A program made the translations under genes and the position numbers. The notes under the pieces were generated by a model. That model did no database searches. It saw nothing but the letters and a program-made list of their open reading frames with translations, and was not told the origin of the DNA. From Tubiluchus corallicola (lineage: Eukaryota > Priapulida > Priapulimorpha > Priapulimorphida > Tubiluchidae): DNA of 64,000 bases. Shown piece by piece: positions 9,101 to 44,639 of this stretch. Position 1 is the stretch's first letter. Each line of letters starts with the position of its first letter. The stretch covers positions 1,470,501 through 1,534,500 of the forward strand of contig JAQGDQ010000002.1 of assembly GCA_030141605.1 (NCBI GenBank), written 5' to 3'.

Positions 9101-9230
9101 TGTACGAAAGCTTGATGCTATTGACACTGACATTGAAAACTTCACTGCCACAATGAAAGAATTAAAGCGACTTGGTAATGGACTCATACACCGGCATCAT
9201 TTTGACAACTTGAACATTAAAAAGTGTTTG
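3183..9230 (+). CDS. Beta-spectrin part: spectrin repeats 10 to 13
   Basis: Eight exons encode triple-helix spectrin repeats. Each repeat shows the helix A Trp or its equivalent: WMQEK at the start, ENWCQD in exon 5396-5521, TAWIEEK in 6918-7104, and EQYMEEK (Tyr for Trp) in 8622-8717. The SEDYGKDLASVQ segment in exon 5396-5521 aligns with the conserved DDYGKDL segment of vertebrate repeat 11. Repeat numbers come from counting back from the PH domain and the ankyrin-binding repeats, so they are approximate by one. Introns 3330-4701 and 4840-5395 show no recognisable element. Confidence 0.9.
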
Positions 9231-15200: not shown

Positions 15201-18200
15201 TCCTGTCATAGTCATTAACATCAGCAGGTTTTGTGTTGACTTTTCGGCACTGTCTTGCTGTTTGCCAACCTGCCTAAAAATGTTTGACGTTGATAAATGT
15301 ATTAAAAGTAATTTTAATATTATACACATTTTTTAATGTTGTGTATTCTCCACAATATTATGATGAGTTGCACTGATTTTGCCAATTGAAGCACATGACA
15401 TTAAAATATTTTTTATTGTCATCCTTAGCTTATTATTTTTGCATATTTTATTGCGTTATTTTTATAGCGTGACTTGCATGCCATTGAACAGCAGCTTCAA
15501 TCACTAGATTCCAGAGTGCAGCATCTGGCAGATGATTATCCAGATAGTGCTGAAAACCTGGAGGCACGACAAGCTGAGGCTCACGATGCCTGGGCTTTGT
15601 TACTCGATGATGCCAGAAAGAAGAAACTACATCTTGACGCTTCAGAAAATTTGAGGTCATATTTTGACAACTACAATGAATTAATGTAAGTCTATTTATG
15701 TTCATACTGACCACATTATTGTCCTAAATTCATTGCCATGTACATTTCTAGCTTTCAATTACTATATTTGCCAAATGTAGCAGAGGTACACCTATTTATT
15801 ACTGTTATATATCCAAAGTAAATGCCCCAGTAGTGGAGCAAAGACTATTTTTATGTTTAATGGGACAGCATTAGTTTTTAAATGCTAAACTGGAAATGCC
15901 TCAAGAAATTACAAATTTGCTCGTCTGACCTTGGTGATCAAATAGATTGTTTAGTCTGTTTGTGGTAGATAGTTTTTTTGAAAATTACAACAGTAAGAGG
16001 TTTCAGACGTTTAGTTTTCATTTTTGTTGAACAATATTGAAAAAACTGATGTCAGACAATCTTTTTTTATAAAAACTAATAACTAATATTTTTCTACTGA
16101 GAAATAGAGTCCACTCCAGGGGCGTCGTGCACCCAAAAAATTGGGGGGGGGGCGACTTTAATGGCGGATGGATTTTAAATGTTTAAATTTGAATTTTAAA
16201 TTTTAAAAATTTAATTTTGAAAAAAATAAACAATATTTTGCGTGCAAGAAAAACGATTTATTTAACATGGCATTTAACTTAAAGCTATAGCAACGGAAAC
16301 TTAATTAAAATTAAAAATTAAATTAAAATTTAGTTAAGTATTTATCAGCTGTCAGGAATCCGACGTGGAACTATCACTCCAGAAGAGCTCAACAACAGAC
16401 TTTAAGTACCGACGAATGTACTCATCCTTTTGGATTCATTCTGTTGGAATCGACATTACAGTAGATACAGACGCCGTAGAACCTGGGTCGGGAACATGGT
16501 TGGACTTGAAAAATGAAGTCAGATTGGACTGCCTTGACATCGTTTAAGAAATATAGAATCACGTGAAAATTCGCAGCGAAAACTAGCAGAGATTCTCCTA
16601 GCAGGCGAAAAATGATGAAATGTGCTCAAAATCACGCCCTTTTATGCAGCAAACTCGTGGGAAAGAGTCACTAAGGAGTAGCAAAGAGTCGGCAATGTCC
16701 AATCAGGAGGTGGCTGAGCCGTGGCTCATCAATTGGTATCTCCCAAACCGACTCTCTGGTATTAGGCTAGCTCGACAAACTGACTCTCTGGTACTAGGCT
16801 AGCTCAACATGACTTCAATGTTTGCATTGTTTTTGCTCTATTATTTCACTTATTCTCTATTATAACACACTGCTTTAGTTTTCTTAACTAACAGCCTTTT
16901 GTGCAAAGACGCTAATGCTGCTCAACGAGCTGCTTTGTTAATTGTTCCTACCTGCCTTCTGATTAGATAGATTACATGCAAACAAATTAACTACATCCTG
17001 ACTTTCAGGCAAACACATACTCATGCTCATACTGTTCGCATTTATGGAGCGCTGGCCGCGTGTCAAAAAGTCGGAAATAAATTTGCTTACCGGTCTCATT
17101 GACGCCCTTCAAATTTTTGACATTTTCTAAAAAAATTGGGGGGCCCGGGCCCCTATGGCACGACGCCACTGGTCCACTCTTATTTAGCCACAAAATCTTT
17201 TATTTAGCCACAATATCTTATCATTAAATTTTTTAACCACAAAAACAACAATCACAAACCACTGCTCATTAAAGCAGACTTAGAAAACAGCATAAAGTGG
17301 TGTTTATGTAGCATCCGGATGCAGATGCATTTTGGATGCGGATGCTTATGGATTTTCCACCTGCTGAATGGCCTGTGGAAAAAAATCAATAGTAATAGCT
17401 GCAGAAAAAGAATAACACATACTCAAACTGCATAAATGGGTGCATTGAAAACAACATAAACCAATTATATCTATTCCGCACGCCCTAAATGCATCTGCAT
17501 GCGGAAGCTACATAAACACCACTTTTGACATAAACGTATCAGAATGAAGCCAAATAAAATTATATTTAATTTAAAGAAACCTGTAAAACTAATAAATTTG
17601 CTAAGCCATGTAACTAAAGTGAAAAGTGAGTTAGTTTATGTTTTTAAAAATCACGCACTGTATTTTAAAAACAAATTACCCTAGATAATTGAAATTTTAA
17701 TATTTTGGAAGTTTATCTGTTTATTTATGTATAAATTTTTGAGTTTTTAGTTTAATGTACGAGTTGGTGATTTACTGTAAGGATTTCTTTGCTTTTTATG
17801 GTATCTGCTACTGTCACATTTTTAGGGCCTGGATTAATCAGATGATGGCTGTCATTACTGCTGAAGAGCTTCCACAGGATGTTATCGGAGCTGAGCTGCT
17901 TATAAACAAACACAAAGAGCATCGAGTGGAGATTGATGGCAAGATGAAAGAGTTCACGTATATTTTTCATTGTTAATATGCTTTAAGAAAGCTGCTATTT
18001 AAATATATTTATATAAAGAGTTGGATCTTCTTTTTGAATCAGCTGTTTACTAATATTGACTGTATCTACCATAACATTTCAGAGATTTTACCAACAGAGG
18101 TCAGCACCTGATTGCTGAGAAACACTTTCTAGCAGATGACATTCAAGACAAAGTTAACAACTTAAATTTGGCCAAGGATCAGCTAGTGGAAACGTGGCAG

Positions 18201-21200
18201 CGGCGTGCCATTCTATACGATCAAAATCTAGATGCTCAGGTTTGATTGCTAGAGTAATAAATAGAAAAGTGTTCGTTTACTTTCAACAGTTCGTGAAGAA
18301 GTTGTAAAACTGAAACCAGTTGTGTGTTTGATATTTATTTAACATTCTAATTAATCATGCTACAGGCTGTTCATCTAAATAATGAGTTTTAAGTTACTTT
18401 ATTTCCATTGGATTCATAACAACTGTTTTAAGATTAAACCTATAACATAATGATCATAAATTGTGAGAGCCTGGTATAGCAAAAATTTCTTACCTGTACA
18501 TTTATGGCTGTTTGACAGAACTACAGAGGTTACATGTTATTCCACAGTTACTTTCCAGCAGTTCACATATTAGCAGTGACTAAAGTTTTTGTGCATGTAA
18601 TCCAGAGCTTTTTATTATTTTGTGAATTGCAGATTTTCAAGCGAGATGCAGACCACTTTGAATCGTGGATGCAAGCTAGAGAACCCACACTAATGGAAAA
18701 TAAATTTGGGCAAAACATCAAAGAAGTGAGTGCTGTTGTGTAGTCACTAATATTTAGTTTTATAGTGCCTCATAAACTAAATAATATGATGACGGTCAGA
18801 AATGTTCACAGTAATTTCTTATTGTATCTACACAATCTATACTCTTTCACTTATAAATCCAGTTTTTTCTTTCACACTATAGTAAGTCCTTGCTTAACAA
18901 CTCCCCATTCAGCGATGTTCATGTTAAAGATGCTGAACATTTGACACATTTTTCTTACTTATCGAGGCACATTTCATTCTAATGACGATTTTTTTCTTCG
19001 CTTAAAGCCATTTTTTATTTGACTAATTACTTTTTTACCATATTTGAGGCTTTAAAACAGTACTTATAGCATTATTCGATTCTAAAAATGCACCAGTAAC
19101 CCAAAACAGTGCAATTATTATACATTTTTGCATCAAGCGAGAACTGTTTGCAATTTATATGCCTCCTGGCACCTTAGTGCAAACTTATTATGCTAAGTAA
19201 TTTTGCGGCAACCTGTTTGTAACAAGTAATTTTGCGGTAACAAGCTAACTGCTTAGGGCTTTTATCGCTAACTAAATATTGCTAATAAAGATTGGTTTGG
19301 TGGTTTCAAGTAAGCAGACAGAAATTAATCAGTAAAAGTATGAATAAAATCAGTAAAAGTATGAATTAAATAAAATATTTAATTTATATGTTTAAAGCAA
19401 CGTTGATTTTTGCCTCTAGTATGTATCTTAGTTGTTTTACATAATTCCTAAGGAAGTTTCACTTAACATCACATTTTGCTGTAATACATTAACGTTGTTA
19501 AGCAAAGACTTATGTACCTGTTTATGGAATTTTTTAACAGAAAATGATGTGACTATTAACTACAATCTGATTTCTTTTAAGAAAAATATCAACAGATCTC
19601 TTCCACTGCTAACAAATTACTGATAAAAATTCTATTTTTCTGGGCTTATGATTGTTTTATCGTGTTCTGATTGTGGCCTTTTGTCTTGGGTGACCACTGA
19701 TTTTGTTTGGGGTAACCGGTTTGCAAAAAAATCATTCATTTCTATTGCATCATCAAAGGTGACAAATTTACAGATGCTATCACTGATGCATATGATATTT
19801 ACACTAAGCAAAATTCTTAAAATTATAAAAATACACATTTTTTGGTAACTTCAAATAGGCGGAAGAGCTACTCAGAAAACATGAAGATTTTGAGAAAACA
19901 GTTGATGCTCAGAAGGAGAGAGTGAAGTCATTAAAAAGAGAAACTGCCATAGAAAAGGCATTCAGAGAACAGATGGAAGTGGAAGCAAAGAGGAAAGAAG
20001 CGGTGGAGAAGACGAAAGAAAAGGAACGTTTGGAAAGGCTGACTTTAAGAGAGCAACGTAGACTTCTGGAGGTTAAAAATTTCTCTTAACAATACTCTTT
20101 CTTTTTGTAGATGCCACTAGATGATCTGTATGATGACCTTGATCATATATTTCCTATAGGGGAATCAAAAAGGGGCATGCTGCATTAGTTTTACATCTCA
20201 TAACTGAAAGATGCTAGTATCATAGCCACTAATTGCATGGATGCAGATCGGCTATGTACATAGGTTTTTTCAGGAATCCTTTTCCTTTAAAGCGAACAGT
20301 TTGTAGAATGTTAGCAATACATTACAGTTTGATTCAGTTGTGACTCCAAACATCTTCAGAGAAACTATTAATTAGTCTTTACCCTGCATGTAGAATCGAA
20401 GAACATTAGGCCAATATACATGATGTTCAAGTTACCACTGTGACATTAGTTACGATCATAACGAAAGTATCTGTTACCACCATGGATGTGGTTCTGTAGT
20501 TGGTCGATCCATATGTCAGTTAGCGAATAACTCCACTACTACAGACTGAAACCTAGCATCTCTGGAACAACTCTGGTTGACGACCACAGGTTACACCATT
20601 TTGGCTTTCTAGGTATCACTATATACATTACTCACCATTTCCTGTGTGAAACTTTCTAGTATCACATTTCTCTTCAGATAATATAACTTCACAGATACGA
20701 AGAAAGAACCTGTCTCAGTTCTGTGTTAAGTTGCCGTCTATATCCAAGCAATGTTAAATGAAGTTCGTCGAGAAGCCACTCACTTGAACAACTATAATTT
20801 CATTCTCCTGTGTACTGGCGTTAACCTTGATTTAGAGCACCGCATTATATCAATTAAACACAAATTATTATGCAGTGTGAATGGGGCTTAATGTTGCATA
20901 AGCATAATGTGAGAACTACTAAATGTAGGGCGAGACCTAACAATCTGTATGAAAATTGATCTATATTTATAAAATGTTTTAGAGTTTGTGTACCATCTGT
21001 CGAGTGACAGACTTCGTTAATGGTTAACTAATGTAGTATGTCTTCGTTTTATACTTATTACAGTGAATAATGACTTTTAACTTACACAATTAGTCATTTT
21101 TAGGAACGTCAGAGCCTAGAAAAGGAAGACAAAGTAACAGAAAGCACTGAAGTATTTGCAATGCCGATACACAGTTCACCATCCCCTGCAGAGAGGGAAT

Positions 21201-24200
21201 TCCAAACTTCAGCTTCTGTGCCTCTATCACAAGAGACTCCAGTCCAGTCTGCAGGTTCACCAAAGAGCCATTACCATACAACACCAACTAAAGATGAAGA
21301 ACATGTGCATCAGGGTTAGTCCTTAGTTGAGTCCATCAAAAGTAAAAGTTTGCAACTTTTGTTTTGTGATCTGGCTTAATGACTCTATGAAATTTAAGTC
21401 TCAGTTTGTTTGTTTGTTGAGCTGTATCAGCTAGAGTTTAACCTTATGCATGGCTATCATAAAAAATGCTCTTAAGAATGTTGTTCAAACTTGACAGGAT
21501 TCTCCAAATGAGATTTTGTCTATGACCGATTTAACACCCATATATCATCCCTCTTGGTCACATTAATATAAAAAAGGGTTTATCTGGTTGTCTGTGAGCT
21601 TTTTTAAGAGTTTTAAACTAAAAAAACTAGTTGACTTCGTTTGTTGCAGCATTAATCCGTTAGCGGGAATTATTGATTTAGTTATATGCAGTAATTTCTG
21701 CTATTGGGCATTCTTAGAAATTACCTACAATATATTTTATCGATGTACTTTATAACTCTTTTGCAACAAATATAAATTTCTCTTTGGTCACTCAACCAAT
21801 TAAGTTATTAATTCACCCCTACTATATTTTTCTTACAAGAATTGTCTACAAAATTGCCTTGTTTTTTCAGTTGTAGCTCCAGCACCTCATAAGCCAAAAG
21901 AACTAACTAGAGTTGCAAGCCTGCGACGAAAAGATGTACGCCGGACTCCAAGCTTTAGTACTCGAAAGGGCATCCATAAAAATACAGTAAATATTGACGT
22001 ATTTATTGCTGTGCATGTTGAAAAAACTCAAATCTTCATAAACTTCTAAAATAAAGAATTGCTAAAATAAATAGTATGGTATGAGTTGAATAATAAGTAG
22101 TGATTATCATTTATTATAGTAGCCCCAACGAAGCTGGCAACTACAGAATTGTTGATTCCATCTCTCTGTTCATCTGTCACCACTTATTCTCGCCTCTGCT
22201 ATAATCTTAGGAAGTTCATACCTCGTTCAGTGGTAGGGCTTGCCGTAGGTTTGGAGCCTATTTTTTTTGGGTCAATCGATGCAGATTTGGATTTTTTACA
22301 ATTTTTTTAAAGATAGAACTTAGTCTCACAAATTACAACTGATTAGCCAGACATTAGATAAATACAGTCAAGTAATACATGTTTTCATTTAGACCCGCAC
22401 AATATTAGCTGTGTTTGAATATACTGCATGGAATTTCATTTACTGTGGGCTTTCGGGCCTCATTATTTAAAGTTTTAGACTGACAATCATTGTAATTTGG
22501 ACACTTTTAAAGTTTTTCGATTAAAAATTAACCTTTCAGTTCTGTCTCTATCAAATTTTAACTTTAATTAACCGGATGCTGTATATGATGGTATCTGGTT
22601 TTTCACAGAAATTTAGTATCACTGTGAGTGTAAGTGCAGAAAATGCATCTTGGCAGTAGTCTCAAAGTATGTCAATCTCACCATGTTAACTATGCTGCTC
22701 TACTGAGGGATCTCTAATTAAAGTAATTTTGAGGAAAAAAGTCAAATTGTGACAATTACACATGATGTTGATGGAAATAATGCCGTACTTGTGCTACATA
22801 CTGCTATTGATGATTACAATGATGACGATGATGACATTGATGGTAATGACGACAACAGCATTCTAGATGTATTTTCATGATTATAATGATGACAATGATA
22901 ACAGTAGTGGTAATGGTGACAATGGCATTGTCAATGAATTACTATTTATTTTTATTTTTAGGAGTCATCAAACTGTGATAACCTCACAGTAACTTCACTG
23001 ATATAAACACTTAAACACAGTTAGTTTGTCGCAAACTTGTTATGGAGTAAAATCGGAATTTTTCATGCAGTGAGAGGAAAAATTATGGACAATGTTTCTT
23101 CTGGCTTTAAGATAGCTTTAGTGTAAGCTGAGAATATTCGTGACAAAAGTAAACTTAAGTTACGATTAGTTATCCATGCTAATTCAGGAGCATTTTCTGC
23201 AGGTTCAGGAGAGTTTACCCCCTGTCACATTACAAGGACCATTGGAGAGGAAGCATGAGCTGATCACAGGCAAAAAGAAGGCCACCATTAGATCATGGAA
23301 ACAGTTCCATGTTGTTTTATGTCAGGATATACTGTGTTTTTTTAAAACCAAAGAGCAGTTTGAGTCGCTACAGTCGAGCGCTTCACATCCTCTTGGCATT
23401 CATAGGTACTAAATTAATCATTATATGTGTTAAGAACAATAAGCTTTTCACTGTTTCATTGTGTGTACGCATAGTTGCTGTAGGTCAAAGTTAAGTGTAC
23501 CACAGCAATGCGTCTTAACTACAGTCATCACGTGACATGTGGGTAACGCAAAGCATTGGTTCAGTAACTTCAGTTGTTTTATGTGGACTTTACTTAATTG
23601 TGCATTAGTCTGTGTGTAGAGTGATTTACTATCAGGATCTTGGTTGGGAATGAAAAACTTAACTAGCTAAGCTTCTAGCTAGCAGTTAAAACTGTTACTA
23701 TTACAATAGTGTTGGCTGCAAAGCGTTGTCAAGTGTACACAAATGTGTTGTCTGGTTCTCTTAACCTTTCACCTTTTATTGATCATAATGAATCGTGGAA
23801 CTGTGGAAAGGCTTATTGTAGCAAAATTGTATTTTTCTGCATCACTATCAACTGTTTTGTTAGTTACACCATTTTTGAAATCATAACTCAACCAAAAATA
23901 TTATAACTTATTATTTATTGTTTGTGTTTTCATGGAAGTTACCCCAAACAAGACACTAGAGTACTTGGAATAATTCAAAATATTAGGCAAGTTTTCTTGA
24001 CAAAGAAACTAGCTAGAAAGTTTACTGGTTTAATCATGGCAGCTCATTTACTGAAAGCACTGTTTTGAAAGAGTTGACAGGTTTGAAAGAAAAACAAGCC
24101 AAAATTCATAGTTTACAAGTAAAAAACTTGTCAAGACAGTATGTATATAGTATGATGTCATTACAGCAAATTTGCTAGAGACCCAGAAAAAAGTACTGTA

Positions 24201-27200
24201 TAAACAAGGTACTATATAAACATACTCAACCAATGTGTATGACTACTAAATGCAAGCATGTGGTATATAAGTAATGTACAGTATGCGGCTTTCCCTGAGG
24301 ATGTAAACTACTGTTTGAGGAAGTTGTCATCTATTTTGCAGCCTAGAACCAAAAAATAGAATGAAAGTACTGTAATTTAGTATTCTTGTTGATACATGCT
24401 GCAATGACTTTCAAAAGCATATATTGTTTTTTGTCAATCACTTGTCAGAATACTATTTGCAGTGCTTTTCGTCAAGTTTCTTTGCCCACTGCTAAAGGCT
24501 TTTTACCAGGATTTACTTCGCAAATGATTTTATATTTACCAAAAGGAGAGAGAGCACTGTTCTCTTTTCTTTCCTCATTGACATGAATGCTCTACGGGCG
24601 TACGTATACATTGCTGATAGTAAGTTACATAATATAAAATGAGTTGGGTACCAGTAGCCACTTAAAGATTCATAACGTAAAATATTGTTTTTATGCAGTA
24701 GATACAATGATGTTTCGATGTGACATATTCATAACTCCACGTGCTCAACAATTTTATCACTGTATCAGGAATGACGGCTTATCTTTAGCTGTAAATTAAT
24801 TTGCAAACAGTAGGCAATAAAAGCTTATAAATGTGCAGTAATACAGATAGAGGGGCCTGACAAAAAAGGCTGTATTACGCATTAACTGAGTATGCTGTGT
24901 TCAAAACTATTACACTGGTTAAATGAATAATGAAAGTTTGTTCTTTTTTGTGAATTCCCATCACCAGTGCATATAAAATAACCATGTTTGCTGTAATGGT
25001 GTTATACTGGATAACGATCAATCACTCAAAATTTCCATTTGCTGTTGTTCGATTTATAATTGTAGTTAGTTTCTGCTGCATAATTTGATATGAATGAAAT
25101 TTAAAATTTCTTTGCACGAAGGGCTTTGGTGGGAAAGGCTTCTGACTATAAAAAGCGACCAAACGTGTTTAGATTACAACTGTTAGAAGGTGCTGAATAT
25201 CTCTTTCAAGCGCCAAGTGAAGAGTCGATGATTGAATGGATACAGACAATTCAACGATCTGCAGGTAAGATTGTAAGAATTAGTTTACTGAGTTGAGACT
25301 TAAACAAAATCTGGGCTTTATTATGTATGTGATAAATACAACCATCATCTGTTTTGTTGTCTGGTTTATGAGTCGCACTTATTTTTGTAAATTTTCACTG
25401 AGACAAATTAATTGACATGTTTGTTACATGATACTATAGAGCATTTCAGAAAAAAATCAGTGCAATAGAAATGTGCTGATATACTTATATGCTTAAAAAC
25501 CAAGTTGTATTATGGACAAATACGCATTATGCAAATATAATTGATTCTTATATCATTATGATGTCTTAATGCGGAAGTCGATGACAACCTTTCTTTGTGA
25601 TTTGATCAGCATATTTCAGCATATCATGTTTCTACTGCACTGTTTTTTCTGGATCAGCATGCATGAGAAATCATAGTCATAACACAGCTTGTACATATAA
25701 TATACTATTTTTTGCAATGCATTTTAAAAGTACATGGCATACTTTCTTTAACCAGTTCACTGTATTTCAGACATTTCTCTGTGTAATGCAATAATTTTTC
25801 AGTGATGGAAATAACTGTTGTAGGAAAACATTCTGCTTGCACAGTGCACATTATATAGTATTGTCAGTTTCTCAGAATTACTTAAGTTACCAGAATCATC
25901 CTCGAGTTTTGAAGCATTTACACTTAGCACTACTACATACAATTTACTGTTGTTGTAAGCATTTGTTCTGATCGAGATGCATACATCTTGCTAATGAGAG
26001 TTTGCATTGTGCACCTGTTGGTCATGCTGTTATCTTATGTGTTCATATGAAACTGCTTGTTCATTTCGTCCTTTTTAGATGCAACACATCAGAGTGTTAG
26101 TCACTTGGCTTCATTACAAGTGAAGGAGTCGCCTGTGCTATACACAAAAGTGCCTGATAAACCACGTACAGGTACTTCCAGCTCAGGTACATGTAGCTCT
26201 GATGATACGTTGACACTATCTGAGACCAAGAAGCCTGAACGTATTCTTCATAAAGCTGTCATTAAGCAGGAAAAAAAGCATGAATACACAACTGGTAAAC
26301 AATTCATTTCTGTTTGGTAAAACTAATTTATTTTCTATTTTGTCATCCTAAAAATATATTAAAATTCTGTAGACATTATTTTTTCCTGATTTTCAGTGTA
26401 AACTGCTAGTTTGCTATTGCAAAAAATTAAATTGTCAACCAGGCATTATTATTTTCCAATTTTTGACGAAGTTTTAGCCTTTTTTATTTAGTTTAGTGTT
26501 TATTTTTACCAAAAAAACTTACAAACATGACTAGATATTTTTTATTGCAGAACCAACGTCACTGGAAAAACTCTCAGATTATGCAAGCTCACAAGAAAAC
26601 CCCCAGAAAGCAACGCCACTACCTACTGAGGAATCAAATAGGTGCGATTATAAAAGTCATGTAGATGTAGGGTATTTTCAACATTTCCTTTCCCAATAAT
26701 TATAACATTACAAATTAATTTCATAATTATGAAATTATGAATTTTAATTCATAATAAATGATCAAATTTATTTTGTGCAATTTCAAGCAAAAGTACTTCC
26801 AATGGCACTGTACAGTAAAATGTCATAATTACAATTACACACTTGAGAAAATATAACACAATTAAAAGTATTAAAAGTTTTCGTGCAAAATGTTCAATCA
26901 CTTACAAGGAGAGAAATTATGATGAACAAAATAGGTGGTTATTGAAGTTTACAGTGGTTGGAATTGATCATAATCATTTTTAAAGAGATGTGTCTTCAAG
27001 TGTTTTTTAAATAGTTGCACATTAGGAACACTTCTATGGTTCTGAAGGAAAGAATTGCAGTATTTAGGGGCAACAGAAGTAAAATAACAAGTCGTCAAAA
27101 TACTTTTCAGTTAAAAGGTACCTAAAGTTCATTATGGGAAGATTTATTTGCCCGTGTGCCCCTACAGTTGCGTTTGTATAACCTATCAGATAGGTAAGCA

Positions 27201-30200
27201 GGAGAAAGTCCGTGCAAAATTATGTATGTCAGAACTAACAGTTTATATATACGCTTAATTCTAATCATTGATCGGTAACCAATGCAAGTGAAGCATAGAA
27301 GCACTAGTACTATTGTACTTTCCTCCACCAATAGTAACATTTGCTGCCAAATTCTGATGGCACTGCATAGGTCGGATGATGCAGTCAGATAATTCATGAA
27401 AATGAGTAATGAATTAGCTTTATCAAAATTCAGACAACACCATTAGACATTAAACATTTCAAGCAATCATTATATAAGAATTTTTCAAGCTTGATAATTT
27501 CTTTGAAAATTAAATGCTGCTTTTCTGCATTTAGATTCAGTTTGGTTTTTAAAATTTAACTGACAATAATTTGCCAGCATTTAAAAACAAATAGTATACT
27601 TGCAACATTTTAGTTTTGTTATTTTTAGCATAGAATCTGAATACAATAGGTTTATTGGTATATGTAAAAAGTTTGTTATTTTAACAATGTTTAAACAATT
27701 TAAATGGAATTTGCTCACAATCGTTTATCAATGTGCTCACATTTGAATATGTTCTTCGTCACTGTAGGGTACAAGTGGCAGTGGTGCAGCCTTGTTTTGC
27801 TCCAGCAGTAGATCATCCAATACGAGATGTTGATCAGTCAGATCATGATCATTCTCATGTTAGAGATGATTCATCAGTCTCGTCTACTGAATCTGGTGAC
27901 ACAGGCAAACTTGCAACAGGTGATGCCTTAGCTTTGGATGAATGCTAACCTTCACATTAGGTGCACATGTTTGTGCAAAAACTAATTTTAAAACATGAGC
28001 ACAACAGATTACATTTAATGCAAAACTATTTGAATACTGCGTATAGTTTGTGTAACTTGTAACAGCAAATAGGTGAAAGTTATTCAAAATATTTTAGCAA
28101 CTTTTAAGGTACGAATCGTTTATATTTATTACTGGTTTTTACATAGACTCGCCATTTTGCACTTTACAACTTATTAAGTTGTGATTGCATTTTAGATTAC
28201 GGCCTGTATTTTTTTTGTTTAACAAACTTTTGTAATCAGTAGCTATCCTTTGTCCTATTACAACTGTATGCAAACATGTGTATTTGTCTTGTTTAGTACT
28301 AACTGTGAATTTTATACTAACAACACTGTTCTCTTCATATCTGTGCTTTTAGATGGTGATCCATTTCCAACTGATCCTTGGGAATTTGTTCCTTGGAATA
28401 ATAAAACATCATCATCGTCTACTCTTGTGTCAGCAGATGTTCAGAGTGGCACCTCTTTCCCTCTTGATACCTCCCACAAACCACCTTTGTTCCCAGAACC
28501 TGAGCCACCTGTTTATGAAACTGCCGATCTGTCACATGTTACAGTTACATTGCAGTCACCCATAAAAAAGGCTTCCACACCACCAATTTTTCCAGAGCCC
28601 ACTCGTTCTCCCGATCTTTCCACTGGAACTTCGTCTAACCGGAAGTTTCCCTGTCGGTCGGTATCAGATGCCGGAGAATCAGAATATGAGTCAGCTGTCG
28701 AGGAGAGTAAGTAAATTAATGTGCTCAAATAGCTGTTAACAAAATCTACATTTTTGGGTAAGATGTGTCTCTCATTTCTCGCTTCTTTGCCTTTTGCTAT
28801 ATTTGCCATTGTAAAGACTTGTTCACATGAAAGCTTTTTTGTTGCTAAAGCATTCTTGCATACAAATAAGCATGCTGTCATTTTTCCCAATAAGTCCAAT
28901 ATACGTATAATGAATAATCGAATAAAACTAGTGTGAAATGCAAAGCATTGGGTTTCTCATTTACTGAGTTTTTTCCGCCCAATTACCTAGACATATTATT
29001 TATTGTTACTATGCAATCCATTTCGTGCATATGTTAGTTGGAATGCTGTTTAGTATTGTCATATATCCACTTTATCGCCAGAACTTTTGAGTTAGAAATT
29101 TCTCTATTGTGATCTTACAATATGAAAAGTGGCTAAAAACTTATTACATAAACAACAATGAGAATGAGACCATCATCACTGGCGAGAAGGATCTGTTTAT
29201 AAGATTACATCACAAATGCGCAACCTAATCATTAGATAGTATAGTCATGAAATCTGCAAACAACATAATGGCTATTGGCCATTAATTCACACGCTAGCAT
29301 TATAAACTTCTGCCTCTGCAAAAATTTGCTTCATTTTGAAGCTGTAATTAAATTACATTCTTCTAAAACAACAAGGTAGTTTGCCCAAACACATAATTCT
29401 TCACTCCTGGGAACGAATGCCTACTCTTCAGGATGGAAGATAAGATACCTCTCCATAATAGCTTAATACCCCAACTACATTAGTTAGTTAATTAACCATT
29501 TGCATTTTAAGATTGCATAATAGTAAACCAGACTAATTCTTTTGTGTACCGATAATCCAGTATTCAAGTTAACTGCCTTTTATTTGTGTTATTATTACTA
29601 TTTTTGTGCCACGGCCCACGGGCATTAATAACTCACAAAGATTAAAAACATTTTTGAGAATATTTGTAAATCAAGAATGCACAAGCTCGTAGATAGTGTA
29701 TTCTTGATTTGCAAACATTCTCAAAAATGTTTTTAAAAGATCTTTAATTAAATTTTTTCAGTTTCTTTTGGTGATAAAAAGCAAATTCAGTTATTTTAAA
29801 TACTATATATTTCCAGAAATACAATTTTGACAAGCATGTGCTCAAAAACTGGTATTCTGTTCTCTTCACATCTGTGCTTTTAGATGCTAGTCCATTTCCA
29901 ACTGATCCTTGGGAATTTGTTCCTTGGGATAATAAAACATGATCATCGTCTACTCTTGTGTCAGCAGATGTTTAGAGTGGCACCTCTTACCCTCCTGATA
30001 CCTTCCACGAATTACCTTTGTTCTCAGAACCCGAGCCACCTGTTTATGAAACTGACAATCTGTCACGTGTTACAGTTACATTGCAGTTACCCAAAAAAGA
30101 GGCTTTCCACACCACTAATTTTTCCAGAGCCCACTCATTCTCCCAGTCTTTCCACTGGAACTTTGTCTAACTTCCTCTTTAATAGTGCATTCTTGATTTG

Positions 30201-33020
30201 CAAACATTCTCAAAAATGTTTTTAAAATTTCTTTAATTAAATTTTTTCGGTTTTATGGTGATTCAGAAATGCAGTTTTGACAAGCATGTGCTTAAAAACA
30301 GGTACTCTGTTTTTGCTGTAGATGTTCTGGTGTTGTTGATACATTGAGTGTTGTAGCTAACATTCTTGTTGTATGTTTTTTTGTGATACTAATGTGTTTT
30401 AAATGTTGTAAAGCTTTGACTTAACTATTTTACATTTTATAACTACTGGTTTGATGATCTTTTTGTAGTTATCGAAACCGAAGAGCTGCCAAAGGCAGAT
30501 GACCCTTGGCAATCTCACTTAATAGACAACGTTCTGTATGAGAGTACAATGCCTACACCACAAGATGCAGCTTGGTTGCCTTTTCATGGGACTCCAGTTT
30601 CTGTGCCAGTAGATGAGCCCGATGTTGCTTGGCAACCATTTCTGCCATCATCTATACAGCCAGAATCACCGAAAGATGAACAAGATAAGCTTGCACAGTC
30701 TTTAGAATCGCAACAGTCATCACCAGATTTACCTGATCAAGAAAGTGCTGCAGTAGAAGCGACTGCACTTCCAGTGCATGAGCAGACAGCCAGCATATCA
30801 CTGGATGTGGTAAGTACATCAACTGACATAGCTAAAAACCAGGTAATTTGCTTTAATTGCATATATTTGAGAGAATGTGTGATAAACATTTGGCTACTGT
30901 CTGAGCTTGCGCATTTCAGTGGAAAGAATAAACATCTTAAAGCAGGTTCGTTTTTCAATATTTGCTTTCATCAGTTCGTCGTTAATGAAAATCTGTTTTT
31001 GTCCATAACTCAATTACAGATCTGACTGTCAGTAATTGAAAATTATCTTTATACATCTAATAGGCTGTGTGACAGCTTACTGTGTTTTATCGGGATACAG
31101 AAACAAACAACACAGTGAAATATTTGGCCGTATCATTCTGGTCAATCATCACAGTAATCAGAGTTGACAGTACAATTCCTTGTCATGTTCTTTTAATAAC
31201 TATATTTTCTCTAATTGATTTGTTCTGCATCACTGTGATTTTTAAGTAGGCATAGACAGTTTTCATCAAAACTTACAATGCAGCATTCACTGGGAGAACC
31301 TATCAAATGTGATGTGTGGCTGGAGTTTGACTAATTGTCAAAGATAATTTTTTAAGATGAGGCACTGAACTGGCAGATGTGTTTTAGCCACCTTCAATGT
31401 GTACACAACTTTACACTGCAAGGTAAACAACAAGAATCAGTATCTCAAATGAATCCGTCCAAAGCAAGTATCAAACCTAGGCGGTCACAATCCATTCACA
31501 GGAAGCATATGCACAAGTTAATTTAATCACAAGCCCCAGTACAAAAAGACAACTATGAGCTAAAAGAAAAACAAAGGAAGTTTGAATTTTAACGACTATT
31601 AACATTACGTACTTTGTTTGTCTATAAAACATCATTATCCTGTAATACAATATTATGTTGTGTAAAATTGGTTAGTTTTGATTTAAATGCATATTGCCAC
31701 TTGTTCAATTCTTTAGGCTTCAGTGAGTGTCTCTGGTGACAAACAACCTGATAAATCTTCCAGTGAAAGAGAAGAGCCATTGTCTTCACAGCCATTGGAT
31801 GCTCAACTTTCACCTCATTCGCTCGTTGTTGTTGCACCGACGTATGTTGTAAATGAAGAGACAGCCAGTGCAGCAATAACCCTGGTTAGTTCAAATTTAT
31901 AATAAGTCCACTTTCGTTATTTAATGTATCTTTATTATGAATAACAATCATCCTAGCTAGTAGTCTGTCTGAGAAAGATGGTAAAAAATGTAAATCAAGT
32001 CACAATTTGAATTTAAGACCTGTGCTTGAACATGTTCTGCTAACTGAGTTACCTGGCTGCTTGATAAAAGTAATGTTAGTAATTAGTTTAACTATAATTA
32101 ACTCCTTATTAATTCTACCTTCTTTTTTATACTAATCCCTCAAAATAGGTTGAAGAACTAATAGTTAGGCAATTACCTGGTTCGGTGTGCTAACAGAATA
32201 AATAATCGAATTTATTTCAAAAATAACAATTAACTTAAAAGCTGATTTATTAAAGAGGGCTTTGGAAAAATTGAATCAATTATCCAATAATCGAAGGCAG
32301 AATCCATTATCTTCTGTATAAGAATTTAGATCTGTATCAAGTAAGCTAAGTACATGTGAGTGTGACACATCAAAATCAAAGGTTCAAATCCCGACTTGAT
32401 TCAGTTTTTCACTGCTTCTACTTTTTTTAACAAACATGTTAATTATAATTTCTCATATGAATGATTGAACCTCAGATTCAGGGTTGCAAATAGTTAAGAT
32501 CAATGATGATTGTGTTGTGGTACTTTATTTCCTACCTTAGCTTCTTTGGCAGGTTACGAAAAGTTACATTTTAGAGTAAAATTTTATCTCCGAGAAGGTT
32601 TCTGTACATTTTGACCACCAGCTCTATGAATTGGCTAATAAAACTTTTTATGTCATTTAGAGACCTCCCTTAACTGCTCAGCAAGAGTACGGAGTGCCGG
32701 GAGCAGAAGCATCCACACAGAAGGCTGCCACTTTACCTGCTATGAGCTCATCTACTTATGCAGAAGAAAAAGAAAGAATTGCCACATTGATGTCTGTGGA
32801 TGGTAACTCTCACAAGGAGAAAAAGAAATCTGGTGGTCTTAGTTGGTTTAAAATACACAAAAAAGACAAAGACAAGAAAGAAGAAAAACACCATAAACAT
32901 GAGAAGGACAAAAAAGAAAAAGAAGATAAACACAAGAAGAAAGAAGGAAAGAGTAAAGACAAAGAAAAAGATGGAAAACATAAAAAAGACAAAGATAAAT
33001 CCAAAGGAAAGGAAAAATAG
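3183..33020 (+). CDS. SPTBN1-like: Beta-spectrin (conventional, SPTBN1-like), 3' 27 exons; 5' end outside window
   Basis: Submembrane skeleton protein that pairs with alpha-spectrin, binds ankyrin and binds phosphoinositides through a PH domain. Exons: 3183-3329, 4702-4839, 5396-5521, 5977-6107, 6918-7104, 7899-8099, 8622-8717, 9096-9230, 10646-10828, 13029-13220, 14243-14398, 15468-15685, 17826-17957, 18083-18239, 18633-18725, 19859-20071, 21104-21314, 21871-21986, 23203-23405, 25122-25264, 26079-26294, 26551-26641, 27768-27919, 28353-28706, 30469-30809, 31717-31884, 32661-33020. All have AG/GT borders, phases join in frame, and the sum is 4860 nt including the stop. The order of repeats 10-17, linker, PH and lysine-rich end matches conventional beta-spectrin rather than the larger beta-heavy form. 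The actin-binding CH domains and repeats 1-9 must lie upstream of the window. The tail after the PH domain (about 560 aa) is far longer than in vertebrate SPTBN1 (well under 150 aa). Confidence 0.95.
9790..9960 (+). pseudogene. Relic of a hAT transposase BED zinc finger
   Basis: In the intron 9231-10645, one frame reads DATCKTCNKI (9868-9897), then a stop. One frame over, TTTNLKRH follows at 9918-9941. C-x2-C, then a Thr/Ser-rich patch, then NLKRH is the core of the BED zinc finger found at the N terminus of hAT transposases and ZBED proteins. Stops and a frameshift make it non-functional. The rest of the transposase is not recognisable, so the boundaries are rough. Confidence 0.45.
10646..15685 (+). 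CDS. Beta-spectrin part: repeats 14-15, ankyrin-binding region
   Basis: Exons 10646-10828, 13029-13220, 14243-14398 and 15468-15685. The join between the first two reads EDVEHVQ then AIQEKYDAF, which aligns without a gap to the atypical vertebrate repeat 14 (DYEHVTMLQERFREF). This lacks the usual LxxKH linker of other repeats and is a landmark of the ankyrin-binding region. Repeat 15 follows (EVHEFDRDADELIEWIQEK). By homology, these repeats would dock ankyrin and so tie the spectrin lattice to membrane proteins. The large intron 10829-13028 contains no recognised element beyond small imperfect hairpins near 12100-12200. Confidence 0.9.
16109..17179. mobile_element. Non-autonomous hAT-type DNA transposon with 8-bp target-site duplication
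   Basis: The element spans 16117-17171 (1055 bp) in a spectrin intron. It starts CAGGGGCGTCGTGC and ends with the complement of CAGTGGCGTCGTGC, a 14-bp terminal inverted repeat with one mismatch. It is flanked on both sides by the same 8 bases, GTCCACTC (16109-16116 and 17172-17179). CAG-starting ends with 8-bp duplications are diagnostic of the hAT superfamily. No transposase reading frame is seen inside; the two 60-codon frames there resemble nothing I recognise. An internal direct repeat of about 27 bp (ACTCTCTGGTAxTAGGCTAG) lies at about 16750-16806. Confidence 0.85.
17294..17526. mobile_element. Short MITE-like element with about 50-bp terminal inverted repeats
   Basis: The left arm, from 17294, begins AAAGTGGTGTTTATGTAGC. 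The right arm, 17476-17526, is its near-perfect complement, and the arms continue through a GATGCAGATGCATT core. Total length is about 233 bp and it codes for nothing. It lies about 115 bp downstream of the hAT element in the same intron. No unambiguous target-site duplication could be called. Confidence 0.65.
17826..20071 (+). CDS. Beta-spectrin part: repeats 16 and partial 17
   Basis: Exons 17826-17957, 18083-18239, 18633-18725 and 19859-20071. Repeat 16 spans MAWINQMM through the INKHKEHRVEIDGKM segment, matching the NNHQGIKAEIDAR segment of vertebrate repeat 16. Partial repeat 17 (DADHFESWMQAREPTLMENK, then AEELLRKHEDFEKT) supplies the helices that pair with alpha-spectrin for tetramer formation. 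It runs on into a charged helix rich in Glu, Lys and Arg, as in other beta-spectrins. The intron 18726-19858 holds only short duplications (about 19196-19244 and 19327-19370). Confidence 0.9.
21104..21986 (+). CDS. Beta-spectrin part: linker between repeat 17 and the PH domain
   Basis: Two exons (21104-21314, 21871-21986) encode a Ser/Thr/Pro-rich, presumably disordered linker. It ends in a strongly basic patch (VASLRRKDVRR) just before the PH domain. The first exon joins the second in phase 1. No known domain is present. Confidence 0.85.
22740..22945. repeat. Imperfect GAT/AAT triplet-rich tract in an intron
   Basis: Interrupted runs of GATGAT, GATGAC and AATGATGAC occur between the linker and PH-domain exons. 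This is low-complexity sequence without conserved coding potential. Confidence 0.6.
23203..25264 (+). CDS. Beta-spectrin part: pleckstrin-homology domain
   Basis: Two exons (23203-23405, 25122-25264) encode the PH domain. Seen: LQGPLERKHEL at the start of strand 1, a lysine-rich beta1-beta2 loop (GKKKATIRSWKQFHVV) as in spectrin PH domains, VFRLQLLEGAEYLFQA, and the C-terminal helix SMIEWIQTIQ with its invariant Trp. Homologous domains bind inositol phospholipids at the inner plasma membrane. The phase-2 intron interrupts after HR. The intron between the two exons (1.7 kb) holds nothing recognised. Confidence 0.93.
26079..33020 (+). CDS. Beta-spectrin part: long disordered tail with DPF/DPW motifs and lysine-rich end
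   Basis: Seven exons (26079-26294 to 32661-33020) encode about 560 residues rich in Ser, Pro, Thr and acidic residues. Exon 28353-28706 begins DGDPFPTDPWEFVPW. Exon 30469-30809 has KADDPWQ, AAWLPF and VAWQPF. The last exon ends in about 70 residues of mostly Lys, Asp, Glu and His, an expanded version of the KEK-rich end of vertebrate beta-spectrins, and stops at 33018-33020. Exon 30469-30809 has a second in-frame donor at 30843. Exon 27768-27919, if not spliced, would end ten codons later at 27948. Apart from the lysine-rich end I know of no equivalent of this tail in vertebrate spectrins. Confidence 0.85.
26945..27400 (-). mobile_element. Decayed non-LTR retrotransposon (LINE), reverse-transcriptase C-terminal end
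   Basis: On the minus strand the frame 27397-27122 contains KLLVLTYIILHGLSPAYLSD, the typical stretch downstream of the reverse transcriptase core in CR1/L2/Jockey-type LINEs. After a stop and frameshifts it continues with FKKHLKTHLFK (about 26960-26995), the usual end of such proteins. A 5'-truncated, dead insertion in the spectrin intron 26642-27767. Confidence 0.65.
29642..29736. repeat. Perfect-looking hairpin, 41-bp arms, 13-nt loop
   Basis: Left arm 29642-29682 and right arm 29696-29736 are complementary at about 38 of 41 positions. The right arm and the roughly 70 bp after it recur as a direct repeat at 30184-30310. See the neighbouring decayed exon. Confidence 0.8.
29695..30312 (+). 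repeat. Direct repeat flanking the decayed exon
   Basis: The segment starting at 29695 (ATTCTTGATTTGCAAACATT...) recurs at 30184. Both copies continue through TTTAATTAAATTTTTTC and, further on, TTGACAAGCATGTGCT and a CTGTT tract. The decayed exon lies in the 489-bp first unit. The second unit breaks off near where the exon would begin. This looks like a partial tandem duplication. Confidence 0.7.
29884..30171 (+). pseudogene. Decayed duplicate of beta-spectrin exon 28353-28706
   Basis: The splice acceptor, about 20 bp of preceding intron, and about 290 bp of exon are clearly a copy of 28353-28640, starting DASPFPTDPWEFVPW in the exon's frame. The copy has in-frame stops (TGA in place of the first Ser codon after NNKT, then TAG in place of the Gln codon), a frameshift near the poly-Lys site, and similarity ends at 30171 before any donor. 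It cannot be spliced in without ending the protein, so it is a dead exon duplicate within the gene. Confidence 0.85.
31420..31530 (-). mobile_element. SINE fragment sharing a tail with the copy at 60.6 kb
   Basis: Read on the minus strand it has a B-box-like TAGGTTTGATACTTG, then a tail TTTGGACGGATTCATTTG..ACTGATTCTTGTTGTTTACC. The same tail occurs on the minus strand at about 60600-60660. Two copies of one family, one in a spectrin intron and one intergenic, with pol III-like box sequence, suggest a tRNA-derived SINE. Confidence 0.45.
31992..32402. mobile_element. Inverted pair of tRNA-like sequences (about 410-bp element)
   Basis: A 72-nt tRNA-like unit on the minus strand (31994-32065) and a 65-nt one on the plus strand (32336-32400) are related and face opposite ways. 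Both begin ATCAAG and end GACTTGAT, so the ends pair like an acceptor stem. Both contain ACATGT and TTCAAAT; the plus-strand unit has a perfect B box, GGTTCAAATCC (32381-32391). The inner 270 bp is AT-rich and unrecognised. It lies in the last spectrin intron. Confidence 0.5.
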
Positions 33021-33222: not shown

Positions 33223-33228
33223 AATAAA
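33223..33228 (+). terminator. Candidate polyadenylation signal of beta-spectrin
   Basis: AATAAA about 200 bp after the spectrin stop codon, followed by GT/T-rich sequence (GTGATAGTGTGTTTC) typical of a downstream element. First such hexamer after the stop. Confidence 0.55.
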
Positions 33229-36185: not shown

Positions 36186-39100
36186 TTATTCATCTGCAGT
36201 GAAACCTCGTTTAGAAGGAGGTACAAGATGTTCTGGAAGAGCGTTGGGTAAAGGAAAGTCATCAAGACGGATTTTAATTAAATGATTAGCTAACGCCCAT
36301 TCATCCTCATCCAGCATTCCATCCTTGTCCACATCAGCCAATTTCCATATCTTTCCCAGGACAGAGTTTGGCAGTTTAGATTTGACCATCTCCATTTTTG
36401 CCGAAGCACCGGTGATCTTACCATTAATGGGATTGAGCGTATAGAACACTTCATCATACTTGGATTTATCTTTTGCAACAATCCAGTCAGAGTCATCACG
36501 GCCTTCATCCACGCCTTCTCCGCTTCCAACCAAAAATGGAGTGTGCTCTGCACCACCCATAGCACCCGCATTGATAGGAAGTTCATTCATTTCAGTGTCG
36601 CCAAGGGCATCTTCTTTCGGTATCATAGCCATCAGTTGTGCGATGTCCACTGCCAGCATGTTATCCACTGATTCCAGAAGCTTTGGCTTCAGACTGTGGA
36701 AGCGAGAGAAATCCATCTCCCTTAGCTGTTCTCTCATTTTTGTTATATCAGGAAAATCCCCATGTGATATTTGATACTCTCGCTGAATCTAAATGGAAAA
36801 AGTGGTTTTCTTGAAAAAGTTATTAATTTACGATAATTATTAAGTGGTTTATTTATTAAAATAAATTTATTTACAGTAGTAATTTGTGAAAATTAAAATC
36901 AACTACTAAAGCATTGCAAAGCACCAAAACATTTTCTTCCCAACTAATTATGCCAACACGACCTCCCATTGCTGCTGAAAAAAGCAAAACTTATGTGAGC
37001 CACAGGTGGGATATGTATAGCTATTAGCCTAAAATGTGTAGAAGGTAGACACTAAAACAGGCAACTAATACTTCAGGAATTATTGGTATTTCAAGAATGC
37101 CTTTGGAGTAAATACAAGTGAAAGACAAACCTATTTAACCTACAATGACAATGAGATTAGTATCTCGAAGCTAGCAAGTCGGAAGAGCTAGTTTACTCAC
37201 ATTAAAGAAAACAACTTTCAAGCAAATCACACGAGAAGGGAACCAGGCACTATAGTGAGGCATTTCTATAACATTTTTATTTATCAATCATGTTCAAAAT
37301 GTCTGACTATAGTTTACAATATTCTGTTGCATTAATGCTAAATATCTAAGACCATCAAACAAAAAATGCAAACAATATTAATAAACATCAAATGCGAAAA
37401 TGGCTTGAGAATACCTGTTTGAACTATGTTTTAATAGGATTTTCTTTTACGAAGTTTGAATAGCTTTTGCTTTGCCATTAATTCACATTATGAGAATATG
37501 ATACAAATTTACTTGAAGATTATCATGCGTACTTTGTACTTTTGTACAAATGCTTTCATACAACTATATATCCCATACTTGCTATGCACACATGGAATGA
37601 CAGGTATTTCAGGAATGACATGAACACAAAATGAAGTAAACTAATTAACTACTGATCAGAATTTACATTGTAGGAGTGCTCAGTTTTAGCAAAACAATAT
37701 ATGTATCACAAGAGTACCATAAATATTTGCTTTATTTTGGTTTGACAGAGCGCTTACTGGTAGTTGCTTACTTTGCAAATAAACATGTTCTGCCACTATC
37801 AAAGTTTACTGTCCTTTTATAGTGTTCAGACTTCAGAGTTACTAGTATTACTGTAGAACTGCAGAAATGTTGTGTAAGAGAAGTCAATAACTAAAGTGGA
37901 AATTGATTCACCATCATAAATTGCTGAACGACAGTTGTAAACACAGCCTCAATGCTAGATGACATCTTAGAATGTTCATGCAATTATGATATTTTTGTTC
38001 AGATTGGCAGTTAAGTAGGTGCAAAGATTATATACCTGAGCATAAATTGCATCCAGGCCTTTAATCAAGTCTTTCTTCTTATTATCTTTTCCAAACATTG
38101 ACGGCATTTGGCTTTTTAGTGAGCTAATTATATATGCATGTACCTGTGAAAACAAAAGCTATGAATAAATTTATTTATATGCATAGTTACAATAAGCTTT
38201 ATGCACGCAAACTTTTAGGAAACTAATACTTAGGGCGTGGCCCAAAAAACACACTGTAGAGACACACTGTACATTGCGCAAAACATAAAGTTCATAAACA
38301 CGTATATAACTGGGTATTACATGTATGCTGCTGAAATCAAAACCATTTAGAAGCAGTCACAAATTTATGTAAAACAACTGCTGAAATTTAAGTTTTAAAA
38401 AGATTAATACATTTTGAGCATCCTTGATTAAGCTACCATACTAGCAATGGTGCCGACAGAAACTTGCATTTAAATGTGCTCAAAGTATGTAGAATCACTA
38501 GAATATAGTGTGAAAAGCACATACATATGGCAAACACACACACACATGGGTTGAGTTACCAGCAGGAAAAATTTGTCCAAAGCTGTACAAATCTCAAATT
38601 CTGTTAATTCTCAGGCCACCGACTTGGGAAGTGCCCGACTTACAGCAGAATCTTCTTCACTTGTAAACTCTCAGTTTTTATTTTCATTGTTTCTTTGTGC
38701 CTTTTTGTTTCTCTTTGTGTTTAGTAACTCACACATGCACAGGCTAAGGTCACGAAATTCACAGGACACACTCTCCATGCAAAAGGATTTATGTTTATAT
38801 GTGACCCTTCGCACTCAGGTCAAAGGCTGGATCGTTAGACTGGATCAGTTGTTGACTACCGTTTTTGAGCTAGGGCCACAATTTTTGGTATGTGGCTAGG
38901 TGGAGAGGAGGTCTTGTGCACGGCTTAATATGAACCATTCATACACCCAGATTGTTGACCCTTGATTCCAGCAAGGGCGAGCAAAAAGCAAAAACTGGAC
39001 GCGCTGGAGAGGCAAATGCTTGCAATTTCGTACAACATTAGTTTGTAATCAATCAAATGAAAGGTTTTCATGAAAGAAATCGAATTGTATCAGTTACGTC

Positions 39101-41324
39101 CAAATTGAATGGCCCCTGACCATGCTAAAAGGTGAAAACCGAATTTAGGGAGTTTGGGAAACAAATATTTCCAGTGTTAAGCAACAGTAGGTTATAGTAA
39201 AAGTAGTAGTTCAGTCCGATTGATCAGAAGACGAATTGGATGCAAGTCAGACCCGTATATTAACGTGCTTTGCCCTACGTATAAGATATTGTGTGTATAT
39301 GCAATAAGTCTGTACCTACATATGAATATATCGAAATAGATAGTACTTTAAAGTTAATTAGTTTAAAAAATAGGAGGTATGAGTTACAGTTACTTTTGTA
39401 TTTTGTATAATTAACTAATTTTTTTGTGCTTAGGTTACAAAGTTGAACAGTCGTAAGTTGCATAGGTCTAAGTCGACCACTACCTCAAATGAAAGGTCTC
39501 GATGAGACGAACTGAATGGTGCATACTGACCTGCGTGTTACTGATCAAAAAGTGGCCAGTTTCGATTTCATTAAAATTATTAATGCCAAGCACAATTCAC
39601 GTTAAATATTTTTAAAAACATTTTTATTTGTAAATACGAAACAAATGACATCACTTAAAGCATCTCTTGTTACAGATGCATGATCTACCACAGTTTTTGA
39701 CAGAGTCAAAAACATTCACTAGTCTTTTTTGCTGATGAAATGCAGGTCACTTGAAAAATGTTTACTTAAACACCGCTAATGTTTTGCATTAATGCATTTA
39801 ATGCATTTTAATTTTTTTGTAAGTATTCATATCAGTAGAAAGTCATTCCACAGGAGTTAAATATTAATTTTGCCTGCAGTTCACAAACTTCTTAAAAATT
39901 ACTACAAAAAGTTGACAGTTTTCCAGCTCACACTAACTAGTTTATTGCTAAAAATGCAAAAGGGCTTTACTAAGCTACCAATAATCTCACACAAATAAAA
40001 TTCAACATACCTTAGCTAACCTGGCACGTTTAATCAAGTCATTTAACTTCCTTAATGCTGTGTTCCTCGGAAGTGTCTGCAGATCGCGAAAAAGGTCTTG
40101 ATGCTCTGCTTCGAACAATCGTCTGTTCATATCATAATGCAAAGGCTGATCCCAGAACGAACCAACATACACTCTAGTGACCTCCGGTGTCTGTAATATT
40201 TTACCCAAGGACCACATTAGTGCACCATAGACTCGCATTAGCTGCTGATGGTCGACACGATCAGCTTTATTTAGAACTATGCGAATTTTCTCATCGTGGC
40301 CTTTTAGTGCCTCTATGCTGCGCCGAAATTCATCAGAAATGTCTAGCTTGTGGGCATCAAATAGAAGAATTATTCGGTCCACTCTTTCTGCAAACCATTC
40401 CAGCACTCCTGTAAAATCATATCCTCTGTCAACACGGTGCTTCTCTCCAGACAGAATTCCCGGTGTATCCACAAGAGATATTGATTTCAGCACAGCATTG
40501 TCAAATGTTGAACACTGAAATTTGTTCAGGAAAGCATTGCCAAATTTGGACAGATGTCGGAATTGCTTTTTCGTATCCACGACGAGTGCATTACCTGGTA
40601 TTTGATTTTCTTGTTCTGCGTGCATTAAAACCATGAATCGATCTGTTGTTGGCTCTGGGCCAATGCGCATACCAGGAAAATCAGACTCTAGTAAGTATCT
40701 AAAACAATAACAACATTATAGCATGTCCTAGTTAAACACTCACAGTCATTTTTTGTTTTCAAATGTCTTTTAAAACTATTCTCCAGGTCCTATTTAAAAT
40801 TAAATGTTAGTCATATGGCATTGCTAACAAAAATTTAACACAGTTGCCTGACTATTGCATGGCAGCATTCAAACAACGCCACGGTAAGCCAATTATGGCT
40901 CTTACAGGCAAGTGTTTATTAAAAAGCTATAGGATTCTACTATACAGAAAAGAGCTGTAATTACACAATAACCGCTATAACTGATAACTGCTTACCAGAG
41001 ACTGCTACTATTTTCCTGTCAGTATATAGCATATGCAGCAAATTACATGTAAGTACAGTCTACATAGCCTTTTACACACATTCTACTCACTTTATCCAGA
41101 TGATATTGCTTGTAAACTTTTACCCAGACATGGGTTTACGATTTACGATTTTAGGAGCAGCACCAGTAGTGACAGGTAAAGTAAGTTTTGATAAAGCAAT
41201 TAGCTACATGAAGTATTGAAGAAAATTGATAAAGTTCTAAATTTTTTCATTATGTCAAAGCACATATCAATGCAAGACAGAATGGTGCATTCATTGAAAA
41301 AGTTCTAACTAATATATATATATT

Positions 41325-44162: not shown

Positions 44163-44639
44163 TTCAATAAAGTATTAAAAAATTATTAGATTCACCATTC
44201 ATGGCTGTACTATTGGAAGCATAAGCTAGACTAACTGAACTTTTCAATTTAGTGGGAACTGGTCGTACATAAATAGCTGAAGCTTGACAAGGCTAAAGTT
44301 TAATGTGGCTTTAAATGTTAAAGTTCTTGACAAACAAATCATGTGGCATACTTTCCCATTCAGTTATACACTCACATGTGAGTGAACATTAATGTTAAAA
44401 ATGTTACTTAATAATTTGTAGGCCCTACTGAAATACGCACACAGTTTTTAATAACGTTACACTCAGCACACTACAAGCATTCCTGATTAGGCAATTAATT
44501 CAGTTTCACAGCAGCAATTAAAAAATCAATGCAGCTGCTAAAATTACAGTAAGAAACAACTACATGGCTTCAATTCAGTTCGTGTTACAGTAAACACATT
44601 TGTGACAAGGTAACGTGTTAATTAGACTCAACAGTTATA

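Follow-up and report, generated by a model that had tools for sequence, protein, structure and literature searches.

Does a spectrin of the priapulid Tubiluchus corallicola carry, in its C-terminal tail, docking sites for the endocytic adaptor AP-2? The first-pass annotation had proposed as much, reading DPF, DPW and W-x-P-F motifs in a long beta-spectrin tail as endocytic-adaptor motifs that might couple the submembrane skeleton directly to clathrin endocytosis. We analysed the window (the whole stretch of 64,000 nucleotides, C1209:1470501-1534500, from an assembly of 343.5 Mb in 2,344 contigs) together with the rest of this genome, and features are listed in Table 1.

Nine forward-strand exons (23203-33020), the first two coding for the PH domain and the last ending in the stop codon, can be joined with AG/GT borders, compatible phases and no frame break, and encode 675 residues in one frame, that is, a PH domain followed by a tail of 560 residues; an AATAAA, read directly, lies at 33223-33228, about 200 bp past the stop codon. 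The best PDB match of the PH domain is the beta-spectrin PH domain 1btn (3e-17), and a Pfam search with the tail gave no match. Given this PH domain (PH_9, 1btn) and the unbroken frame, the motif-bearing exons are part of a PH-domain beta-spectrin gene. All the quoted motifs are present on the forward strand, within the exons at 28353-28706 and 30469-30809. The interval originally reported, 28353-30842, does contain both, but it also takes in the intron between them, where a decayed copy of the first of the two lies, and overshoots the donor at 30810.

Table 1. Features of the spectrin gene in the window (position 1 is the first letter of the window)
Feature	Position	Strand	Basis or remark
Spectrin repeats ~23-30, many exons, last one partial	3186-20071	+	HMM; Pfam PF00435 on C1209
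PH domain, two exons	23203-23405, 25122-25264	+	PF15410 PH_9 1.5e-19; PF00169 1.5e-12; splice phases
Tail exon 1	26079-26294	+	open frame, AG/GT borders, phase-compatible
Tail exon 2	26551-26641	+	splice model
Tail exon 3	27768-27919	+	splice model
Tail exon 4 (DPF, DPW, FVPW, FPEP twice, PPVY)	28353-28706	+	splice model, motif scan
DPF	28358-28366	+	exon 4
DPW	28373-28381	+	exon 4
FVPW	28385-28396	+	exon 4
Local direct repeats around the exon 4 copy	29637-30311 (29686-29861, 30175-30311)	+	repeat search
Decayed duplicate of tail exon 4 (intron after exon 4)	29857-30171	+	91% identity over 315 bp
Tail exon 5 (DPW, WLPF, WQPF; D-x-A-W-x-P-F repeat)	30469-30809	+	splice model, motif scan
DPW	30501-30509	+	exon 5
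WLPF	30573-30584	+	exon 5
WQPF	30630-30641	+	exon 5
Tail exon 6	31717-31884	+	splice model
Last coding exon (LMSVD, lysine-rich end with LSWF, stop codon)	32661-33020	+	splice model

An HMM for the spectrin repeat, built iteratively from this animal's own α-spectrin, was run on the open frames of the window and of the 79.5 kb upstream. Between a point 28.3 kb upstream of the window and position 20,071, about 24 repeats follow one another with no large gap, and 5-6 more lie on the same strand and contig after a CH2 domain whose exons are at about -77.8 kb; about 22 repeats and the CH2 domain lie upstream of the window. At both ends of the series the repeats match the spectrin beta chain of 8iah, and those following CH2 match beta-spectrin repeats 1 and 2 in register. 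The CH2 domain on its own also resembles alpha-actinin, and a 35-kb stretch free of repeats separates this side from the main repeat run. Invertebrate β-spectrins have 17 repeats and βH spectrins 30 (PMC9368487), so that the gap-free run of about 24 is already beyond a conventional β-spectrin, and the gene total is about 30 (counted from HMM pieces and not from a full splice model). Judged by its repeats, then, the gene is a β-heavy spectrin of the fly karst/βH type and not a conventional β, and the comparison with SPTBN1 made in the annotation was drawn from the wrong branch. On the reverse strand, inside the stretch covered by the spectrin gene, is a single-exon open frame (1376-2428) that by eye resembles a rhodopsin-type GPCR.

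Conventional beta-spectrins are present in the same genome. At two further loci, C2279 and C2252, CH domains and repeats are combined with a PH domain that is nearer to that of mammalian β-spectrin. In C2279 only some 35 residues follow the PH domain before the stop, the last of them KKRSFFTLKK; C2252 agrees with this as far as the examined stretch reaches, and both tails are without DP[FW]. The long tail is therefore a trait of the heavy form in this genome. Conventional beta-spectrins (SPTB/SPTBN1, C2279, C2252) share with the βH gene the CH domains, the repeats, the PH domain and a basic C-terminus with S-[FW]-F, and differ from it in having 17 repeats, the literature value, and a tail of about 35 residues, against about 30 repeats and 560 residues. 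There is a hint that the last exon is akin to the short tails, with which it shares TLP followed by a basic end containing S-[FW]-F; the p is 0.02-0.03 when the lysine run is left out, and the similarity is not significant when it is included. At its extreme C-terminus the βH protein is lysine-rich (32 K/R in 71 residues, window 32820-33020), and this part could attach to acidic membrane next to the PH domain.

Are the motifs more than products of composition? Three DP[FW] occur in the tail where 0.12 are expected, and shuffles of the tail reach at least three with p ~1-2e-4; five of its six Trp fall within DPW, W.PF or FVPW. The pairing of W-x-P-F noted earlier is a real internal repeat, D-x-A-W-x-P-F occurring twice, which none of 50,000 tail shuffles attains, although EFVPW, which had been listed with the pair, does not fit that pattern. 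FPEP also occurs twice (p 2e-5 in tail shuffles), both times within a second repeated element, P-P-[LI]-F-P-E-P, of exon 4 (tail residues 198-236). The pattern DPFxxDPW occurs once in the 343.5-Mb genome, in exon 4 itself, and the reversed control pattern not at all. By the same shuffles a PPVY site of the WW type (p 0.08) and the one clathrin-box match, LMSVD in the last exon (p 0.17), are at chance level. The tail had been described as disordered and acidic; charge-hydropathy and composition agree with this for the motif-bearing segment, but the 104 residues that follow it fall just on the folded side.

These values must be read with care, because each p refers to one motif class at a time and hundreds of classes could have been noticed; with a few hundred such classes, the p of ~1e-4 for DP[FW] is only moderate evidence. 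It is possible, if somewhat less likely in our view, that the tail is no more than a spacer, disordered and evolving fast, whose DP[FW] are accidents of its Asp/Pro-rich composition with no specific role. Motifs of three residues arise easily, and the tail was found only here: no paralogous tail turned up in the animal's own genome besides a decayed exon copy, and no relative in prokaryote genomes of 84,980 species, searched for stray animal contigs. The DP[FW] count, the doubled D.AW.PF and the placement of the Trp residues speak against such a spacer.

The decayed copy, which surfaced as the third match of the tail search in the genome, bears on this question from two sides. It derives from exon 4 and sits in the following intron; its acceptor is kept, but the donor is absent and the frame is broken by two in-frame stops (one TGA, one TAG) and a 1-bp insertion. 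Local direct repeats surround it, of which the left one contains a 46-nt inverted repeat, and neither matches elsewhere in the genome. We considered whether the copy could serve as an alternative exon; this is unlikely given the lost donor and the frameshift, and the protein would stop after fewer than 20 codons, so the copy is most likely dead. Its first DPF has become SPF, a loss that suits a chance origin of the motifs. The intact exon 4, on the other hand, is open over 354 bp beside its decayed copy, which is modest evidence that the original is translated.

We come to the receptor. The α-ear platform of AP-2 binds DP[FW] and FxDxF, while WxxF goes to the sandwich site (PMC3794858). This genome encodes an AP-2 alpha ear that shares 60% identity with its mammalian counterpart across 123 residues. 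Eight of eight platform positions checked are identical (F836, F837, W840, E849, R905, E907, R916, R920), in what we take to be the right numbering and choice of positions. The Eps15 of the same animal, taken as a positive control, has at least 11 DP[FW] motifs; for epsin, a second control, the ENTH exon was found, and no DPW tail was seen in about 20 kb downstream. The three motifs of the tail fit the definition of α-appendage platform ligands, with a platform that is kept and with the same motif in Eps15, and they may bind there. The W-x-P-F motifs fare otherwise: the side-site consensus of the α-ear is WXX[FW]X[DE] (PMC5694535), and WLPFHG and WQPFLP lack its acidic residue, so that neither can be counted as an AP-2 side-site ligand. 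The proposed coupling of spectrin to endocytosis keeps its DP[FW] and receptor part and loses its W-x-P-F part.

Of the readings considered, we favour a weak, low-valency AP-2 docking tail of the beta-heavy spectrin, although we stop short of calling it probable. The further claim that AP-2 binds this spectrin directly, through DP[FW] sites that tie the apical lattice straight to clathrin-coat assembly, may hold, but we are more hesitant about it. Against docking counts the low number of motifs, three against the 8 DPW of epsin and the 15 DPF of Eps15 (PMC7787433), together with the absence of NPF, FxDxF and WXX[FW]X[DE] from the tail when it was scanned for them, although for a platform ligand the side-site motif is optional and DP[FW] can stand in for FxDxF. 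The affinity of single DPF-type motifs for AP2-alpha lies in the range of hundreds of micromolar (PMC11246429), and three of them would therefore need avidity. The tail resembles the arrays of epsin and Eps15 in having DP[FW] in a long, acidic, disordered chain and in its expected receptor, and differs from them in motif number, in being without ENTH, EH, NPF and UIM, and in belonging to a skeletal protein. Dab2, a cargo adaptor with a PTB domain, is likewise different in not being a skeletal protein. It is nevertheless an endocytic protein with a single pair of consecutive DPF motifs (PMC4731787), which indicates that low valency does not exclude function.

Could the aromatic motifs be read by something else? 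A DPF-tolerant EH domain, or a Trp-binding domain recognising D-x-A-W-x-P-F/FVPW, is conceivable but unlikely. The EH domain of POB1 takes DPF besides NPF, a specificity that is itself described as unusual (PMC2238750), and most EH domains want the NPF that the tail lacks. EH-domain proteins are present in the genome, one of them adjoining; the W-x-P-F pair is less probable by chance than the DP[FW] count and matches no AP-2 consensus. We know of no reader of W-x-P-F. The adjoining gene is of EHD type (dynamin-family GTPase, DUF5600, EH domain; 36186-40715 and beyond, reverse strand) and lies tail-to-tail with the spectrin about 3 kb away; that an endocytic-recycling gene neighbours a spectrin carrying such motifs may be a coincidence. 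A second GPCR-like single-exon open frame of rhodopsin type, again recognised by eye, is apparently inside its span (44622-45611, forward strand). Very improbable, to our mind, is that the DPF-PT-DPW pair is a ligand of the muHD of FCHo/SGIP1. This domain reads two consecutive DPF motifs with a linker of 2-3 residues, and the two-residue linker is the spacing of the reported high-affinity sites, but replacing Phe by Trp cut binding severely and the second motif here is DPW (PMC4731787), which makes muHD an unlikely reader of DPFPTDPW. A muHD search of the genome gave no match, but no control responded either.

How would a docking tail work? We propose that the C-terminal tail of βH was lengthened to a mostly disordered chain of 560 residues, whose three DP[F/W] would most likely dock weakly onto the AP-2 alpha appendage platform, while PI(4,5)P2-rich membrane would retain it through the PH domain and the lysine-rich end. 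In the spectrin lattice many such tails would lie next to one another, and avidity could offset the low valency. The likely effect would be that AP-2 is tethered or fenced at the edge of the lattice, or that the tail competes for it with Eps15/epsin, with the outcome that clathrin pits are restrained or placed, much as reported for βH in flies. Transcription, AP-2 binding and the direction of the effect are what we infer here.

This brings us to the fly. The βH of Drosophila carries an SH3 domain, which in the fly/worm type sits in the N-terminal third, and we know of no DP[FW] motifs in its tail. In the Tubiluchus gene an SH3 domain was not found (no PF00018 match in C1209:1391001-1503520, a search that an SH3 split by an intron would escape). 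The two share a beta-heavy spectrin of about 30 repeats with a PH-containing C-terminal segment, which in Drosophila karst is the domain betaH33. The literature ties betaH33 to membrane association, to the endocytic machinery and to a restraint of endocytosis (PMC9368487, PMC3976414); there the C-terminal domain is said to interact with the endocytic machinery and βH to inhibit endocytosis (PMC9368487, citing Williams 2004). The reported partner of the fly protein is Annexin B9, with which it acts on endosomal processing and sorting (PMC3976414), and a spectrin mesh is described as fencing AP-2 pits (PMC9368487). To speak of a "new function" was therefore too strong, since a link of the Drosophila βH C-terminal domain to the endocytic machinery is already reported (PMC9368487). 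A literature search for DPF or DPW motifs in any spectrin found no description of them, and we would rather present the motifs as a candidate mechanism for the known link between βH and endocytosis. Spectrin in general is known to fence endocytosis or hold it back, and docking of this tail on AP-2 would fit what is reported for the fly. If the three DP[FW] are used, a connection so far seen by genetics would become a contact with a defined AP-2 pocket that can be tested, and, if true, AP-2 docking would supply the molecular step that is missing between βH and its part in endocytosis in flies.
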